A stretch of DNA of 64,000 nt, from assembly GCF_006381105.1 (NCBI RefSeq), contig NZ_VDET01000014.1:1-64000 (forward strand), read 5' to 3'. The notes below the pieces were generated by a model. It was not told where the DNA came from. It saw only the letters and a program-made list of their open reading frames with translations, and did not search any database. The stretch comes from Flavicella sediminum. Its GTDB lineage: Bacteria > Bacteroidota > Bacteroidia > Flavobacteriales > Flavobacteriaceae. The position numbers and the translations under genes are program-made. Below, in pieces: positions 53,067 to 60,164 of the stretch (its first letter is position 1; each line of letters begins with the position of its first letter).

Positions 53067-53444
53067 TTATTTTGTGTTTTTTAGTTGCGCTAATAATTTT
53101 TCATATTCTTTATAGGACATTTCATATATGGGAAGCGATTTTTCGAACAAAGCAGAAATAGTTTCTATTTTTTCATGGGTTCTAGCCATTGTTTCAATTT
53201 CACTAAATTCTTGATGAAGCCGAACGCCCATAGTTGAAAAAGTAGATTTTAAAAAATGCGTTGCTTCTTTAATCTGTAGGTGGTTAGCTTCACTAATTGC
53301 ACTTTTAATAAGGGCTATTTTTTCTGGAGTTTGTTCTAAAAAAACAGCAATTAATTGTATCTGTAAATCGGTTTCTCCTTGAAAACCTTCATTTAAAAGA
53401 TTTAAATCTACAATTGTACTGTGTAGTATTTGACTTTTATGCAT
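53067..53444 (-). CDS. Hpt domain histidine phosphotransfer protein
   Basis: A 125-aa stand-alone phosphotransfer protein with a four-helix Hpt fold. The phosphorylated residue should be His63 in 'IKEATHFLKSTFSTMGV', which matches the Hpt pattern (A)H-x-L-K. 'IQLIAVFLEQTPEKIALIKSAI' is the typical first helix pair. It passes phosphate between a hybrid kinase and a response regulator. It is divergent from a one-domain response regulator across a 142-base spacer, which suggests these two are partners. No histidine kinase is nearby. Confidence 0.88.
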   Translation of the reverse strand: MHKSQILHSTIVDLNLLNEGFQGETDLQIQLIAVFLEQTPEKIALIKSAISEANHLQIKEATHFLKSTFSTMGVRLHQEFSEIETMARTHEKIETISALFEKSLPIYEMSYKEYEKLLAQLKNTK

Positions 53445-53586
53445 AAATTTGTTCTATTAATGGGATAAAGTTAAACAAAAATTTCAGCTAAAATTAATTT
53501 TAAAAGGAGTTGTTGCTAATTTTATCGAGAATAAAAGGTAATGCATTATATTACCAAAAAAATAATCAAATTTAAAGTATTTGATA

Positions 53587-53952
53587 ATGAGTAAAAAAAA
53601 AATTGTTTTAGCAGAAGATAATTCTGTTTTAGCCTTATTGTTGAAGTTTAAGTTAGAAAAATCAGGATATGATTTGCAGATTGCTGAAGACGGAAAACAA
53701 GCCATAGAATTAATTGAATCGCATCAGCCAGATTTAATATTAACAGATATAATGATGCCTTATTTGAGTGGTTTGGAATTGATTAGTCATGTCCGAAATA
53801 AATTAAATTTAGAAACGCCAATTATCGTTTTTTCTGCTGCTGGGCAAGAAGAAAATGTATTGTCTGCCTTTGATTTAGGGGCTACAGATTTTATGGCAAA
53901 ACCTATCAGTCCTAATGAATTGGTAATTCGAATAAAAAGACTGATCCGATAA
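53587..53952 (+). CDS. Single-domain response regulator
   Basis: A 121-aa CheY-like receiver without output domain. The acidic pair is in VLAEDN, the phosphorylated Asp54 in ILTDIMMP, and Lys105 in MAKPIS. I use ATG 53587; a TTG six bases upstream is less likely. It is the first gene of a tight operon with a HEAT protein (7-base gap), a GT2 synthase, an LtaS-like transferase and a YaiO-like barrel. It probably controls that machinery by protein contact, since it cannot bind DNA. The divergent Hpt protein is its likely phosphodonor. Confidence 0.92.
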   Translation: MSKKKIVLAEDNSVLALLLKFKLEKSGYDLQIAEDGKQAIELIESHQPDLILTDIMMPYLSGLELISHVRNKLNLETPIIVFSAAGQEENVLSAFDLGATDFMAKPISPNELVIRIKRLIR

Positions 53953-53959
53953 ATCGACT

Positions 53960-55045
53960 ATGAATTATATACATGCTTTAGAAAATTATATCAACAACAG
54001 TCCTTTGTTTATTCAGGTGTTGTGGTCTTTCTGTTTTGTATTATTGTTCATTTTTATATTGCTTGTTTTTTTGCATAGTTCCTTAAGGGGTAGTTTGCGA
54101 AAGAAAGAAGCCATAAAGAAGAAGTATTCTGAAAAATACGAGACCTTATTAATTCAATATTTATATTCTGAAGAAGTAAGTGAACAACAAAAAATTGTTC
54201 GGCTTTTAAATAGAGATTCGGGGAATAACTTTAAAAGAAATAGTATTGTAAATACGTTGATCAAATTAAAAGATGAAATTTCAGGAGAGTTAGAGGTGGC
54301 CATTCTTAAATTGTATGACGATTTGAACTTGGATACTTTTGCTATTTCAAAATTAAAGTCTAAAAATCCTTTCCGAATGATCAATGGAATTCGTCAACTA
54401 AATATTTTTCACGTAAAATCTGTACATGCAAAAATATTGGAACATGTAAACCATGAAGATAGATTGGTGCGTAAAGAGGTTCAGTTGTATTTGGTAAAGT
54501 TGTTCCAATTTGAAGGATTGTTTTTTTTAGATAAATTGGAAGCGCCACTTTCTGAATGGAATCAAATTCAGTTACTTGAAATTTTGAAAAAATTTGATAA
54601 CCAGGATATTCCAGATGTAACGGCTTGGTTAAAATCTACAAATAAATTTGTGGTTTTATTTGCCCTTAAATTGGTAAGGGTCTATAATTTATACGAAAAA
54701 GAAAAAAGTTTGATTGACTTATTAAGTCATGAAGATCAAAAAGTTCGATTAGAGACGATTATTACGGCTACACATTTACAACAATTGAGTATAAAAAGTG
54801 TCATAATTTCCAAATTTGAAGACATTAGTTTAGAGGAACAAATAGCTTTTTTAAATTTTTTGAAAATAGCCTATGAGCCTGCTGAAGTCGATTTTATACA
54901 TACACATATTTACCATACTGATTTTGATATAAAGCGTATTGCTTTAGATCTATTAAAATCAAATCACAAAGAATTGTATGACAGTTTGGATTGTAATAGC
55001 GAGGACAAAGATTTTATGAAAATACTAAACTTTATGAATGCTTAA
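53960..55045 (+). CDS. Membrane-anchored HEAT-repeat protein
   Basis: A 361-aa protein with one membrane span at about 17-40 (IQVLWSFCFVLLFIFILLVFL), a basic stretch, and a cytosolic helical-repeat domain. Repeats such as 'HEDRLVRKEVQLYLVKLF' and 'HEDQKVRLETIITATHL' look like HEAT repeats, a protein-interaction scaffold. It sits between the response regulator (7 bases) and the GT2 synthase (3 bases). I infer that it links the phosphorylated regulator to the synthase at the membrane. No enzyme motif. Confidence 0.78.
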   Translation: MNYIHALENYINNSPLFIQVLWSFCFVLLFIFILLVFLHSSLRGSLRKKEAIKKKYSEKYETLLIQYLYSEEVSEQQKIVRLLNRDSGNNFKRNSIVNTLIKLKDEISGELEVAILKLYDDLNLDTFAISKLKSKNPFRMINGIRQLNIFHVKSVHAKILEHVNHEDRLVRKEVQLYLVKLFQFEGLFFLDKLEAPLSEWNQIQLLEILKKFDNQDIPDVTAWLKSTNKFVVLFALKLVRVYNLYEKEKSLIDLLSHEDQKVRLETIITATHLQQLSIKSVIISKFEDISLEEQIAFLNFLKIAYEPAEVDFIHTHIYHTDFDIKRIALDLLKSNHKELYDSLDCNSEDKDFMKILNFMNA

Positions 55046-55048
55046 GTT

Positions 55049-56482
55049 ATGGAAGTAATACTGCTTAAAATATTAGATATTTTCCTCTTTATATTTGTCA
55101 TGTATACCTTTTCAGTGGTTTCCTCTTACATCATTTTAGGTATTATTTCAACCAAAGAAACGGTGTCTTATTTTAAGAAAAATAGTTTTGTCAACTATAA
55201 GAACATCATGTCATCAGAAGATTCTCCATCCATTTCTATTATAGCACCAGCCTATAATGAAAGTTTAAATGTGGTAGAAAATGTACGCTCCTTGTTGTCC
55301 AATCATTATGTAAATTATGATGTAATTATTGTCAATGATGGTAGTAAAGATGATAGTTTGGAAAAGCTAATTGCAGCTTACGACCTAGAAAAAATTGATT
55401 ATTTGTTAAATGAACAAATTCCAACACAGCCTTTAAGAGAAGGTGTTTTCAAATCTAAAAACCCGGCCTTTGCTAAATTAATTGTAGTTGATAAAGAAAA
55501 CGGAGGGAAGTCGGATGCCCTAAACGTAGGTTTAAATATAAGTACAAGTAAATATGTAGCCTGTATTGATGTGGATTGTTTGCTGTTGGAAGATGCGTTA
55601 CAAAAATTAGTGAAGCCATTTTTAGAAGTAACAGATAGCAAGGTCATAGCAACAGGAGGGGTGATTCGAATAGCCAATTCTTGCGTGATTAAAAATGGGA
55701 AAATGTTAGAAATAAATTTCCCTAAAAAAATGATTGTCCGTACACAGATATTAGAATATTTAAGAGCTTTTTTGTTAGGACGTATGGCTTGGAGTAGATT
55801 GAATGGTTTGCTGGTTATATCTGGTGCCTTTGGTATGTTTGACAGAAAAATAGCGGTGGATGTTGGTGGCTACGATGTAAAAACTGTGGGAGAGGATATG
55901 GAAATTATTGTACGTATGCGTAGGGTAATGGAAGAAAAGAAAATTAAATACAGAGTGTTTTTTATTCCAGATCCACTGTGTTGGACAGAAGCGCCTGAAA
56001 GTTATAAAATATTGATCTCTCAAAGAAATAGATGGACTAGAGGTACGATTGAAACCTTGAAGAAACATCGAAAAATGGGACTCAATCCTAAATACGGAAA
56101 ATTGGGAATGATCAGTTTGCCGTATTGGTTTATTTACGAAAGAATGGCACCCCTTATTGAAGTAGTTGGGCTTATTTATTTTATTGTATTAATTTATATG
56201 GGAGGTGTTCATTGGGAATATGCAATAACGTTTTTCTTTTTGGCTTATTTATTTACTGTTTTGTTTTCGTTGTTGGCTATTTTTACAGAAGAAATGACCT
56301 ACAATGAATATAAGAAAAAAGGTGTTGGTTTTAAAATGATATTGACCATTTTATTAGAACCTTTTTTACTGCATCCAGTTATATTGTATGCGGCTGTAAG
56401 AGGAAATTTCGATTACTATTTCAATAAAAATAAAAAATGGGGAGTGATGGTGAGGACTGGATTAAAAAAAGAAGATTCATGA
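55049..56482 (+). CDS. Processive GT2 glycosyltransferase, polysaccharide synthase type
   Basis: A 477-aa membrane glycosyltransferase of family 2, like the poly-GlcNAc synthase PgaC/IcaA and related synthases. An N-terminal membrane helix (6-33) precedes the GT-A domain with Asp97 in VNDGS, Asp174/Asp176 in the DVD metal site, the GED motif (VGEDMEII) and SQRNRWTRG (QxxRW). About three C-terminal membrane spans follow (VGLIYFIVLIYMGG, 'YAITFFFLAYLFTVLFSLLAIF'). It should polymerise a nucleotide sugar and pass the chain through the membrane. The sugar is unknown. The next gene overlaps by four bases (ATGA). No PgaD or PilZ protein is present. Confidence 0.9.
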   Translation: MEVILLKILDIFLFIFVMYTFSVVSSYIILGIISTKETVSYFKKNSFVNYKNIMSSEDSPSISIIAPAYNESLNVVENVRSLLSNHYVNYDVIIVNDGSKDDSLEKLIAAYDLEKIDYLLNEQIPTQPLREGVFKSKNPAFAKLIVVDKENGGKSDALNVGLNISTSKYVACIDVDCLLLEDALQKLVKPFLEVTDSKVIATGGVIRIANSCVIKNGKMLEINFPKKMIVRTQILEYLRAFLLGRMAWSRLNGLLVISGAFGMFDRKIAVDVGGYDVKTVGEDMEIIVRMRRVMEEKKIKYRVFFIPDPLCWTEAPESYKILISQRNRWTRGTIETLKKHRKMGLNPKYGKLGMISLPYWFIYERMAPLIEVVGLIYFIVLIYMGGVHWEYAITFFFLAYLFTVLFSLLAIFTEEMTYNEYKKKGVGFKMILTILLEPFLLHPVILYAAVRGNFDYYFNKNKKWGVMVRTGLKKEDS

Positions 56483-58893
56483 AACAAATTGTTGAGCATT
56501 TAAAAAAGTACCTTTATTTTATTCTTCCACTATTTATTGCTTTTGGAATATTGACCTGCTTTGAAGTATTATTTTCAAATGCAAACAATACTTCTGGAAT
56601 CATTTCTATTTTATACAAACTAAGTAATGATTTTTGGACGGTTGCAGTTATTCTTTGCCTACTATCACCAATATATTTGTTGTTGTGTTTGTTTTCAGAA
56701 AAAATAAGAACCGTTGTTCTTTTACTGTTGCTAAGTTTGTTTGTGGTAGGTCAGTTTGCTTTGGTGAAATATTTTATGACGACCCTAATTAATTTAGGTG
56801 CCGATATTTTAGGCTATTCTTTTGATGATATTTTTTTAACCGTCTCTGCTTCTGAAGGAATTAGTTTTGTTTACTTTTTACCTTTTTTAATTTTTCCTAT
56901 TATTTTTATCGCCTCGTTTTTGTTGGTGAAAAAATACCTGGCTAGTAAAACAAATAGTTATATAGCAGTAGCTTTGGTAGTTGTTTTTGGTGCAATTTCG
57001 CTTGTTTCTCAGCAAACAAAAGAACAAGAAAATCAAAATAAACTCTACTTCTTTGTATCTGATATTGTGAAATTAAAAATAGAGAAGAAGCAACTAGGCG
57101 CTTTGAACTTTTCAGACAGAAAAGATTATCCGTTGTTAAAACCTTCTGAAGAAATAGCGGATGTTTTATCTCCTTTTTTTCATATTAATACGAGTAAAAA
57201 ACCCAATATTGTTATTTTAATGGTAGAAGGTCTAGGAACAGAATTTGTAGGAGATCATTCCTATGCTGGTTTTACACCTTATTTAGATTCCATGATTTCA
57301 AAATCTTTGTTTTGGGAGAATTTTGTAAGTAATACAGGACGTACTTTTGGTATAGCTCCTTCTTTATTAGCTTCTTTGCCTTTAGGGGAAAAAGGTTTTT
57401 TAGAAGAAGAAAAAACAGCATCACATATTTCTTTGCTAAGTGTTTTAAAAAATAATGGGTATACCACTTCCTATTATTCGGGTGATGCTGCTAGTTTTGA
57501 TAAAAAAATTAATTTTTTAGAATACAATGGTGTAGATTATTTAGTAGATCAGGATTCTTATGGAGCAGATTATCAGAAAACAGCTTCGAACGAAGGTGGT
57601 TTTTCATGGGGATATCCAGATGCTGAGATTTATAGAAAAATGCTGAATACCCTAGGTGCTAAAAAAGAACCGCGTTTGGATGTGTTAATGACACTTTCCA
57701 ATCATGAGCCATTTGCATTTCCTAATAAAGAAAACTACCTAAGTAAGGTGGATAGTATTTTGTCGAACAATTCTAATCTGAAAATATCCAGTGAAGCTGT
57801 ATTGGAAAACAAGGATATTTATGCCACTTTGCTGTATACCGATACCTCTCTTAAAAACTTTATGAAGGCTTATGAAAAACGTCCAGATTTTCAAAATACG
57901 ATATTTTTAATTACCGGTGATCATCGTCTAATTCCAATCAATCAAAAAGATAAATTATGTAGATTTCATGTACCGTTGTATATCTATAGTCCGATGTTAA
58001 AAAAAACAGCCAAATTTAAGTCCGTTTCCTCGCATTGGGATGTAACACCTAGCTTGCTATCTTTTTTAATGAATAATTACAATTTAAATAAAATAGAAGC
58101 GGTGCCGTGGATGAGTACAGGATTAGATACGGTTCGAGCATTTAGAAATACGCACCAAATTCCGATGATGCGTTACAAAGGAAGTATCAATGATTTTTTA
58201 TACAAAGATTATTTACTTTCAGATGGAGCCTTGTATCAGGTAAAAGAGAATTTTGGGATCTACAAAATAAAAAATGATTCTATAGTAAAAGAGGCGAAAG
58301 CTGCTTTAACGAAATTTAAAATTTTGAATAGATATGTAACACAAGAAGATCGAATATTTCCTGAGTCTTTAAATATTTACAGGGTTTTAAAAGAAGAAAT
58401 TCCGAAAGAAAAATTAGCCATCATAAAAAAAGAAGTAGGTAATATGACTTATGATGCTATCTTTTTTGTAGCTAGAGATAGTGCTTTTGCCAAACGTTAT
58501 GAAAAAGCAAGATTGCTTTGTGACTATATTTTAAATGAATTTCCTAATTATGCAGATGTTCGTACTTTAAAAGGAAGAACCTATGCTTGGGAAGGTTTAT
58601 ATGATGAAGCGGAAGAATCTTTTTTGACAGTAATCAAAAGAACGCCTTTTTATGAAGATTCCTATGGTGCTTTGGTCGATTTGTATTGGTGGTCCAATCA
58701 AGATGAAAAATCCATACCTTTATTTCAAACAGCAATTCAACGTAAATTAAAAAATCCTGAGTTGGTTGTTAAAATGGCTAAAGTATACCAACGATTGAAA
58801 AAAGTAGACAAGTCAATTTCCTTATTAGATAGTATCATACAAATATACCCAGATTCTACGGCGTATAAAACATTAAAAAATACATTGAAATGA
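56479..58893 (+). CDS. LtaS-like sulfatase-fold transferase with C-terminal TPRs
   Basis: An 804-aa inner-membrane enzyme. Five N-terminal membrane spans (about 11-180) match the topology of lipoteichoic acid synthase. The extracytoplasmic sulfatase-fold domain has Glu250 (LMVEGLG), Thr286 or Thr289 (SNTGRTFG), His409 (LSNHEPF), and Asp481 and His482 (ITGDHR), equivalent to the LtaS metal and nucleophile residues. TPR-type helices fill about 670-804 ('GLYDEAEESFLTVIKRTP'). LtaS and OpgB relatives transfer phosphoglycerol or similar groups to glycans. Here the target is probably the polymer made by the GT2 upstream. The start at ATG 56479 forms a 4-base overlap with GT2. The TPR tail is unusual for this family. 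Confidence 0.85.
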   Translation: MKQIVEHLKKYLYFILPLFIAFGILTCFEVLFSNANNTSGIISILYKLSNDFWTVAVILCLLSPIYLLLCLFSEKIRTVVLLLLLSLFVVGQFALVKYFMTTLINLGADILGYSFDDIFLTVSASEGISFVYFLPFLIFPIIFIASFLLVKKYLASKTNSYIAVALVVVFGAISLVSQQTKEQENQNKLYFFVSDIVKLKIEKKQLGALNFSDRKDYPLLKPSEEIADVLSPFFHINTSKKPNIVILMVEGLGTEFVGDHSYAGFTPYLDSMISKSLFWENFVSNTGRTFGIAPSLLASLPLGEKGFLEEEKTASHISLLSVLKNNGYTTSYYSGDAASFDKKINFLEYNGVDYLVDQDSYGADYQKTASNEGGFSWGYPDAEIYRKMLNTLGAKKEPRLDVLMTLSNHEPFAFPNKENYLSKVDSILSNNSNLKISSEAVLENKDIYATLLYTDTSLKNFMKAYEKRPDFQNTIFLITGDHRLIPINQKDKLCRFHVPLYIYSPMLKKTAKFKSVSSHWDVTPSLLSFLMNNYNLNKIEAVPWMSTGLDTVRAFRNTHQIPMMRYKGSINDFLYKDYLLSDGALYQVKENFGIYKIKNDSIVKEAKAALTKFKILNRYVTQEDRIFPESLNIYRVLKEEIPKEKLAIIKKEVGNMTYDAIFFVARDSAFAKRYEKARLLCDYILNEFPNYADVRTLKGRTYAWEGLYDEAEESFLTVIKRTPFYEDSYGALVDLYWWSNQDEKSIPLFQTAIQRKLKNPELVVKMAKVYQRLKKVDKSISLLDSIIQIYPDSTAYKTLKNTLK

Positions 58894-60164
58894 TTGTATC
58901 AAGAAAAAAGTTGAGATTTTTCGGAATCTTAGTCCTAATGAACTTTACTGTTGCTTTTTCGCAACAAAAAGAATTTTCTGGAGATCCCGATGTGGCCTTT
59001 GAAAAAGCAAGAAACCTGGCCTTTAATAGTCAGCGTAAAGCGGCGCAAGATTCCTTACGTTTTATTTTAACAAAATATCCAAATTATTTAGATATACGTT
59101 CTTTTTTAGCAACGACCTATTCTTGGGATGGATCCTATAAATTAGCAAGAAAGGAATTTGCCGCCATCTTAAAAAAAGATCCTGAAAGAAAATCAGACTG
59201 GATTGCCTCTATAAAAAATGAACTTTGGGGAGAATATCCGTACAATGCTTTAGACTTGTCGAATAGTGCTTTAAAAGTATTTAAGGAAGAACCAGCTATA
59301 ATGCTTTTAAAAGCAAGTGCAGAAGAAAGAACAAAAGACCCTGAAAAAGCCTTAGAAACTTTAGAAGAAATTTTAGCCAAACACCCAGAACATAAAGAAG
59401 CACTTTCTGACAAGGAAAGTTTGGTAGATCGTTTAAGTAATAATTCTATTGGAGTGACCACATCTGTCGATATCTTTCACGATAACGACAGACCTATAAT
59501 GGAGTATTATACGGTAGATTATAGCCGTCAAACAAAATACGGAAGTATCATTGCAAAAGTAAATATCAACAGAAGGTTTGAAACTACAGGAGTGCAGTAC
59601 GAAGTTGATATGTACCCAAAAATTAGAAAAGGTTTGTATGCTTATACTAGTTTTGGTTATTCTAACACGGGCTTGTTTCCTGAAATCCGATATGGAGGAG
59701 AATTGCACCAAAGTCTGCCAAAAAGTTTCGAAGCCTCTTTAGGATTTAGAGCTTTAAAATTTTCTGAAACAACAATTATTTATACTGGGTCCGTAGGCTG
59801 GTATACTGGTAATAGTTATTGGGCTTTTAGAACGTATATGACTCCTGGAGGTGCAGGTTTAAGTAAGTCAGGAACGCTTACCTATAGAAAATACAGAAGT
59901 GATGCAGCCAACTATTTTGGAGTTGCCGTTGGAATTGGGTTTTCTCCAGAGTTTGATCCATTCCCTATAAATGATGTAGTAGATGTTCCTAAGTTCGATT
60001 TAAAATCACAAAAAATCGATTTCACTTATAATTTCACTTCCAAAAACAAAAAGAATATTTGGGGAACTACCGCAGGGATTTCTCATGAAGAACAAATAAA
60101 TGCTCCGGGAACGTATTTTTTAATTTATACCTTGGGGCTTAGTTATAGTATAAAATTCAAATAA
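58890..60164 (+). CDS. YaiO-like TPR plus outer-membrane beta-barrel protein
   Basis: A 424-aa exported protein. The signal peptide ends near residue 25 (AFSQQ). TPR-like helices occupy about 30-180 ('RSFLATTYSWDGSYKLARKEFAAILKK', 'PEKALETLEEILAKHPEHKEA'). The C-terminal 230 residues form a beta-barrel of the YaiO type (VTTSVDIFHDND, 'YTVDYSRQTKYGSIIAKVNINRR', ending YTLGLSYSIKFK). In its operon it follows the GT2 and LtaS-like genes with a 4-base overlap, so it is the likely outer-membrane exit or anchor of the polymer. The TPRs resemble those of PgaA-type exporters. Confidence 0.87.
   Translation: MIVSRKKLRFFGILVLMNFTVAFSQQKEFSGDPDVAFEKARNLAFNSQRKAAQDSLRFILTKYPNYLDIRSFLATTYSWDGSYKLARKEFAAILKKDPERKSDWIASIKNELWGEYPYNALDLSNSALKVFKEEPAIMLLKASAEERTKDPEKALETLEEILAKHPEHKEALSDKESLVDRLSNNSIGVTTSVDIFHDNDRPIMEYYTVDYSRQTKYGSIIAKVNINRRFETTGVQYEVDMYPKIRKGLYAYTSFGYSNTGLFPEIRYGGELHQSLPKSFEASLGFRALKFSETTIIYTGSVGWYTGNSYWAFRTYMTPGGAGLSKSGTLTYRKYRSDAANYFGVAVGIGFSPEFDPFPINDVVDVPKFDLKSQKIDFTYNFTSKNKKNIWGTTAGISHEEQINAPGTYFLIYTLGLSYSIKFK

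Follow-up and report, generated by a model that had tools for sequence, protein, structure and literature searches.

The Bcs system is controlled by cyclic di-GMP (c-di-GMP), as are, to our knowledge, the well-studied synthase-dependent exopolysaccharide systems in general. Flavobacteriaceae largely show no GGDEF proteins (matches above the cut-off in 2 of 120 genomes), which raises the question of how such synthases would be switched in this family. In E. coli, as PMC11379886 describes it, BcsG adds phosphoethanolamine (pEtN) to cellulose beside the synthase, and the tetratricopeptide repeats (TPRs) of BcsC guide the chain. Here we analyzed a 64,000-nucleotide stretch of Flavicella sediminum DNA (contig NZ_VDET01000014.1, positions 1 to 64,000; hereafter the window), in which five plus-strand genes at 53587-60164 run divergently from a minus-strand gene for a histidine phosphotransfer (Hpt) protein at 53067-53444. 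The five encode a receiver-only response regulator, a HEAT protein, a family 2 glycosyltransferase (GT2), an LtaS-like enzyme and a YaiO exporter. We consider this operon likely to be a synthase-dependent polysaccharide secretion system without c-di-GMP, its receiver acting through the HEAT protein on the synthase, and as such it offers a testable answer to how synthases are switched in the family.

An earlier note on this DNA had proposed that the operon makes a polymer, decorates it outside the inner membrane and passes it through the outer membrane, under contact control by the regulator. Conservation of the gene set, the likeness of the exporter to known ones, fusions of synthase and LtaS-like enzyme, the lack of c-di-GMP parts and the neighbouring phosphorelay genes all favor this interpretation; what they do not bear out is universal decoration.

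Synthase, exporter and conservation of the operon

The layout described in the earlier note was confirmed by the gene coordinates (Table 1): gaps of 7 and 3 bases separate receiver from HEAT and HEAT from GT2, and ATGA overlaps join GT2 to the LtaS-like gene (56479-56482) and the latter to YaiO (58890-58893). The receiver gene starts at the ATG at 53587, with a TTG at 53581. Pfam matches and the exporter model likewise agree with the gene identities assigned there (Hpt, receiver-only regulator, HEAT, GT2, LtaS-like, TPR plus YaiO); TPRs at the C-terminus of the LtaS-like protein (residues ~690-800; Pfam) had been overlooked.

The GT2 carries D97, D174xD176, GE282D283 and Q325xxR328W329, with all motif residues present in 33 of 33 aligned sequences, and thus combines the D, DxD, ED and QxxRW residues of processive GT2s with transmembrane (TM) helices. 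Synthases with these motifs polymerise sugar and extrude it, and the window enzyme would accordingly polymerise a sugar and extrude the chain into the periplasm. Its best NCBIfam match is PgaC/IcaA (E 4.4e-37; 128 bits versus a cut-off of 422.3).

The exporter belongs to the YaiO family by both PF19413 (200.2 versus 23.9 bits) and TIGR04390 (174.9 versus 32 bits). Its structural model (predicted local distance difference test, pLDDT, 91.0) consists of a signal-like helix, nine TPR helices and then 14 strands, which places a periplasmic TPR domain and an outer-membrane barrel in the same locus as the synthase. The first three PDB fold matches are BcsC (twice; 8.9e-10) and PelBC (1.3e-7), and the polysaccharide secretin 4y25, which we take to be PgaA, ranks 30th (E 2.0e-5); the model resembles BcsC, PelBC and 4y25 with modest TM-scores (0.38-0.45 by query). 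The likeness to the BcsC and PelBC folds supports the outer-membrane export role proposed earlier and, together with that to 4y25, suggests that the chain would be handed over to the YaiO barrel. That the operon secretes a polymer is, in our judgement, highly probable.

Three other loci (L071, L081 and L107; L numbers denote loci, G numbers genomes) have NfrA-sized exporters of 937-955 aa, whose barrel is that of YaiO, beside HEAT and GT2. DUF4838 genes adjoin YaiO in 5 of 5 scanned cases (L071, L075, L107, L109 and L111), one of which weakly matches a glycosidase-associated domain, and YaiO has similar-sized neighbours in L070, L081 and L110, outside the five scanned.

We examined conservation first in named genomes, whose contigs were searched with GT2 and gave 36 loci, mostly from Flavobacterium, Lutibacter and Polaribacter. 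The order receiver, HEAT, GT2, LtaS, YaiO is found in 31 of them, including three with at least one extra gene between LtaS and YaiO (L004, L022 and L027), one with the receiver split over two frames (L015) and one whose YaiO is cut by the contig end (L003). The other five comprise a cassette without LtaS and YaiO (L010), two without LtaS (L023 and L032), one cut by the contig end (L036) and one with broken frames (L037). Identity to the window proteins is 66-81% for the receiver, 69-76% for GT2 (83% in the partial L036), 47-59% for both LtaS and YaiO, and 29-44% for HEAT. The earlier note had allowed that the gene order might prove unique to this genome, or that GT2 and the LtaS-like protein might group with unrelated pathways; the order is shared by 31 of the 36 named loci, and the family searches made gave no such grouping.

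Two genome samples not chosen by operon genes, 120 from the family (the window's genome included) and 247 from the phylum, extended the search; their placement in Flavobacteriaceae and Bacteroidota follows from named relatives. In the family sample, YaiO occurs in 32 genomes and the HEAT protein in 30, the latter coinciding exactly with the genomes whose YaiO frame measures 408-470 aa (the two remaining frames have 942 and 958 aa). In 27 of the 30, no more than 10 kb separates HEAT from YaiO; in G031, G100 and G111 they are apart. G002, a second genome of the window's genus, has neither. In the phylum sample, YaiO occurs in 64 genomes and HEAT profile matches, weak ones included, in 58. Strong HEAT matches (E ≤1.3e-15) number 42 and come from 37 genomes; YaiO is present in every one of these genomes and no more than 10 kb away from 37 of the 42 matches. 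Conversely, of 45 YaiO frames measuring 380-520 aa, 37 have a HEAT match at up to the same distance. Fisher p-values for this co-occurrence ignore shared ancestry and are descriptive. The gene set thus co-occurs in Bacteroidota well beyond this genome.

A wider collection of 108 loci, found through GT2, YaiO or HEAT and so not an unbiased sample, contains GT2 in 100, of which 62 have all five parts close by and 13 all but LtaS. Two loci were excluded from the counts over 83, 100 and 108 loci and from the GT2 tree described below: L037 (Flavobacterium sp. NK2020), whose matches fall in several frames, and L044, which duplicates L034. Receiver, HEAT, GT2 and YaiO are kept in altered order, without LtaS, in L065, L069, L076, L083 and L109; because the four parts stay together when shuffled, a working link is indicated rather than a merely inherited order.

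Several Flavobacterium genomes carry a second GT2-YaiO cassette without LtaS downstream of the first, and a ~370-aa family with 33-43% identity to the L079 protein lies near some cassettes (Table 1). Ten genes near cassettes were scanned for clues to the substrate and included a helicase, methyltransferase, sigma factor, tRNA methyltransferase, aminotransferase, ROK and CYTH proteins and unknowns, with no sugar-nucleotide enzyme among the ten.

Table 1. Coordinates of the operon in the window and of gene families and cassettes in related loci
Feature	Coordinates	Strand	Evidence
Hpt, stand-alone phosphotransfer protein, 125 aa	53067..53444	-	Pfam Hpt 1.1e-6; likely phospho-His H63 in THFLKS
Divergent intergenic region Hpt/receiver, 142 bases	53445..53586	.	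Gene coordinates
Response regulator, receiver only, 121 aa, without output domain	53587..53952	+	Pfam Response_reg 7e-28
HEAT solenoid protein, 361 aa	53960..55045	+	AlphaFold2 model, hydropathy and charge, profile matches
Processive-type GT2, 477 aa, ~4 TM helices	55049..56482	+	Pfam GT2 1.2e-20, motif residues
LtaS-like membrane phosphotransferase-type enzyme, 804 aa, C-terminal TPR domain	56479..58893	+	Pfam Sulfatase 1.3e-27 and TPR_19
Outer-membrane exporter, 424 aa: signal-like helix, TPR domain, YaiO barrel	58890..60164	+	PF19413 3.3e-59
NfrA-sized exporter and neighbour in L071	L071:3369-6236 and L071:1259-3364
~390-aa family members	L061:8845-9999, L064:6691-7869, L077:9655-10827, L079:10224-11375, L080:7843-9030, L084:13770-14960, L088:9048-10217, L089:7578-8747, L108:10865-12049
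~370-aa family	L079:9122-10243, L088:11637-12761, L089:5030-6154, L027:13563-14675
Second-cassette loci	L006, L010, L011, L013, L016, L025 (about 14-18.5 kb)		HEAT-like gene by similarity in most

The LtaS-like enzyme

The LtaS-like protein of the window has the catalytic metal-binding and nucleophile residues E250, T289, D481 and H482, so the earlier note was right to call its active site intact. Its PDB profile matches are led by VP1736, LtaS2, LtaP and LtaS, with sulfatases making up the remainder, and no protein named pEtN transferase is among the 12 at E ≤0.001. The best NCBIfam matches are LtaS (47.7 versus 970 bits) and phosphoglycerol transferase I (34.9 versus 572 bits). A sulfatase role was rejected: the formylglycine motif of sulfatases (PF00884), which we take to be C/S-x-P-x-R, is absent, and the window protein reads NTGRTFG.

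The strongest evidence that synthase and LtaS-like enzyme act on one product comes from single-frame GT2-LtaS fusions of 1134-1260 aa, present in six loci of five genomes (L072, L073, L074, L111, and the pair L080 and L108 from one genome). All but L111 group together on the GT2 tree, where L111 stands elsewhere, so that the fusion label needs two changes. The tree was made by a quick method, and its label 'ltas_active' was assigned by distance, as a result of which second cassettes such as that of L006 are wrongly labelled.

We somewhat favor transfer of a phospholipid head group as the chemistry of the window's own system. The enzyme would put this group on the emerging chain, with phosphoglycerol the foremost candidate and itself a tentative one, and the operon in this way suggests a phosphate-bearing surface polymer. 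Three observations speak against this picture: LtaS residues W354 and R356, presumably those of the phosphoglycerol pocket, are not kept, different residues being aligned there; in 8 of 70 LtaS-like proteins an S, T or N takes the place of the catalytic metal-binding D, mostly with other ligands changed as well; and a search around GT2 gave no LtaS in 34 of 100 loci. Decoration as proposed earlier gains from the six fusion loci, and the last two observations count against its being universal.

Transfer of pEtN in the manner of BcsG, or of some other head group than phosphoglycerol, appears unlikely to us. It would agree with the altered pocket and with the placing of BcsG beside its synthase (PMC11379886), whereas the structural profile matches are to LtaS, LtaS2, LtaP, VP1736 and then sulfatases, and the NCBIfam ones, both far under cut-off, to LtaS and phosphoglycerol transferase I.

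The second feature of the protein is its TPR tail. Judged from protein length, 58 of 70 LtaS-like proteins are long enough for this C-terminal domain (57 separate and one fused). The window tail aligned with the YaiO TPR domain over 145 residues at 63.5 bits; an NfrA-like TPR, the one control, gave 23.5 bits. Tail and exporter TPR domain may together pass the chain to the 14-stranded barrel and so through the outer membrane. All eight degenerate proteins (L049, L052, L053, L054, L057, L058, L062 and L106) belong to one GT2-tree clade of 16 rows that also holds active forms, and since they are full length (793-807 aa), catalysis seems dispensable in that clade and the protein retained. The TPR tail may explain this retention, as the membrane-plus-TPR body of a dead enzyme would probably still form a periplasmic bridge.

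Such a bridge is the core of a further alternative, in which the polymer is made and exported and the LtaS-like protein is mainly a structural TPR guide, with decoration secondary or absent. The full-length degenerate forms, the frequency of the tail and its resemblance to the exporter TPRs are what this would lead one to expect. Against it, the tested catalytic residues are kept in 62 of 70 proteins, and all 12 without a TPR tail by length (7 separate and 5 fused) appear among those listed as intact, which indicates that catalysis is kept where the bridge is missing. We regard a mainly structural role as quite unlikely and continue to prefer decoration combined with guidance. The natural series of separate gene, fused gene, dead enzyme and no enzyme would lend itself to separating decoration from export.

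Nine loci (Table 1) contain members of a ~390-aa family that begins with a hydrophobic stretch, as judged from six N-termini, without a Pfam match in the four members scanned or an NCBIfam match in the three scanned. LtaS is TPR-less in 8 of its 9 loci, and the family is present in 8 of the 12 loci with TPR-less LtaS; it may stand in for the LtaS tail.

Proposed control of the synthase, and points against the reading

Both partners of a phosphorelay are equipped for it: the Hpt protein has a likely phospho-His, and the receiver has D11, D54 and K105, kept in 36 of 36 aligned sequences. At E ≤0.001, the window genome (99.99% complete) has no Hpt match other than the one next to the operon. That genome gave no GGDEF and no PilZ match, with matches obtained in control genomes for both, and so holds no sign by these domains of the c-di-GMP control typical of Bcs, Pga and Nfr, in keeping with the earlier note. 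Across the family sample, GGDEF occurs in 4 of 120 genomes, above cut-off in 2, and together with the cassette in G093 (over cut-off) and G104 (below it).

We inspected what precedes the receiver gene in 83 loci and counted a gene when it was on the same strand and within 60 bases, as was the case in 37 (two of these 37 genes were cut by the end of the sequence examined). At E ≤0.001, these 37 genes contain Hpt in 29, a receiver domain in 22 and HisKA in 21, some of the Hpt matches scoring under Pfam's own cut-off; kinase, Hpt and receiver are thus encoded side by side in some relatives, and the phosphorelay link suggested earlier is supported. An aldehyde dehydrogenase, a short-chain dehydrogenase and a GGDEF-EAL protein (L096) are among the exceptions. 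A divergent Hpt gene as in the window recurs in three Polaribacter loci (L005, L007 and L026), and many Flavobacterium loci have no gene of this kind near the receiver. No hybrid kinase adjoins the window operon. Hpt was found in 68 of 120 family genomes and within 5 kb of HEAT in 20 of 30 cassette genomes; for these distances, 31 Hpt positions (cassette genomes only) were entered and the remainder compared by eye. The operon is probably switched by a phosphorelay instead of c-di-GMP.

The HEAT protein of the window scores 19.2 bits with Pfam HEAT_2, under the cut-off of 27.7, which relatives at the same operon position exceed. Its AlphaFold2 model, built from 32 aligned sequences, is an all-helical solenoid (mean pLDDT 91.8), and a fold search returned generic solenoids only. 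The single N-terminal TM helix (20-38) is preceded by 15 residues without K/R and followed by 15 with five, a distribution that predicts a cytoplasmic solenoid. All four distant relatives scanned (L096, L097, L100 and L105) have HEAT proteins missed by our own profile and matched by Pfam, and weak HEAT profile matches probably include unrelated solenoids.

We propose that a hybrid kinase would pass phosphate to Hpt and thence to the receiver, which, being outputless, would most likely dock on the membrane-anchored HEAT solenoid, and that the latter may gate GT2. Contact control through HEAT is the simplest reading because, in genomes that mostly lack c-di-GMP parts, an outputless receiver is encoded next to a synthase and a solenoid predicted to be cytoplasmic. 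Control running from receiver through HEAT to synthase is moderately likely in our view, and a receiver working through a HEAT scaffold would be an unusual actuator.

HEAT proteins are lengthened to 694-985 aa in one clade (L046-L059, L062 and L106), with a further HEAT stretch in 14 of these 16. The gene at L096:683-4039, directly upstream of a receiver-HEAT-GT2-YaiO set, encodes a PAS-GGDEF-EAL protein, and the locus is a possible c-di-GMP-linked relative.

It is very improbable that receiver and Hpt act elsewhere, for instance in gliding or as a phosphate sink for other kinases, and merely share the operon. A single-domain receiver without a self-evident target would fit this, as would its position at the other end in L069 and L109 and the 10 of 30 family cassette genomes without Hpt within 5 kb of HEAT; set against them are the receiver's presence near GT2 in 86 of 100 GT2 loci, shuffled orders included, and the location of the genome's only Hpt match at this operon. 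That the GT2-LtaS pair modifies lipid or lipopolysaccharide rather than a secreted polymer, as enzymes of both kinds also act on lipids, is in our view highly improbable given the PgaC/IcaA match of the synthase, the TPR-barrel exporter of the BcsC/PelBC kind and the DUF4838 genes, one with its glycosidase-associated match, next to YaiO.

Several further points have to be held against a polymer system under phosphorelay-HEAT control. No sugar-nucleotide gene was found in the window operon. With E-values that fall between PelBC and 4y25, ordinary porins also match the exporter model; as porins and TPR proteins match similarly, the barrel alone is not specific, and it is the combination of TPRs and barrel that ranks BcsC first. 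Of the 64 phylum-sample genomes with YaiO, 27 are without a strong HEAT match, and 8 of the 45 full-size YaiO frames lack any HEAT match within 10 kb. In 46 of 83 loci the receiver has no same-strand neighbour within 60 bases on its upstream side and so resembles an orphan in many of them, above all in Flavobacterium, and one third of the family cassette genomes have the distant or missing Hpt noted above. Finally, the GGDEF match of cassette genome G093 is above cut-off, and in L096 the GGDEF-EAL gene stands immediately upstream of the receiver.

Relation to described systems

A broader generalization seems to us evenly balanced: that the operon represents a Bacteroidota-wide class in which a kinase-Hpt-receiver relay on a membrane HEAT protein replaces c-di-GMP/PilZ, and an LtaS-type enzyme with a copy of the exporter TPRs decorates and guides the chain, retained as a pseudoenzyme in one clade. 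No description of this gene set was found in the titles and abstract starts of open PMC papers. With its inner-membrane GT2, tailoring enzyme and TPR-barrel exporter, the operon would work in the manner of Bcs, Pga and Nfr, yet the sequence features compared place it outside Pga, Nfr and LtaS.

With LtaS and phosphoglycerol transferase I, the LtaS-like enzyme shares domain family and catalytic residues; it differs in its TPR tail, operon context, non-conserved pocket and scores far below the equivalog cut-offs. The Pga/Ica system, which makes poly-N-acetylglucosamine, is approached by the GT2, best matched by PgaC_IcaA, and by the exporter model with its match to secretin 4y25, yet the window operon has no PgaB-type deacetylase or PgaD match, and membership was rejected on the synthase score (128 versus 422.3 bits). 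The yaiS-yaiP-yaiX-yaiO cluster of E. coli also sets YaiO beside a GT2 and tailoring genes, the window GT2 and YaiP being 28% alike over part of their length. Both YaiO proteins pass TIGR04390, with BLASTP aligning them in short pieces only (best E 0.046); the E. coli protein leaves no room for TPRs, since it has 257 aa and the barrel model covers 22-257. Unlike in the window, the annotation of the 14 kb inspected at the yai cluster lists no gene for a receiver, HEAT protein or LtaS.

E. coli Nfr (NfrB, NfrA and YbcH) likewise pairs a GT2 with an outer-membrane TPR barrel (PMC8669469). In the passages of that source consulted, NfrB bears an MshEN c-di-GMP domain and neither an LtaS-like enzyme nor a phosphorelay is described for Nfr; the window GT2 has no MshEN Pfam match at E ≤1, and Nfr membership was rejected for this lack.

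E. coli Bcs with BcsG shares most with the operon: a GT2 synthase, a membrane-anchored periplasmic phosphotransferase associated with it, and an exporter of TPRs plus barrel (PMC11379886). Where Bcs has BcsB and BcsZ, the window operon has receiver and HEAT, and it differs further in its LtaS-type enzyme, its 424-aa exporter with 14 predicted strands and a genome without a PilZ or GGDEF match. By analogy, pEtN-cellulose would be the closest mechanistic parallel, and what is new here is the proposed phosphorelay-HEAT control, an LtaS-type tailoring enzyme with an exporter-like TPR tail, the fusions and the dead forms.

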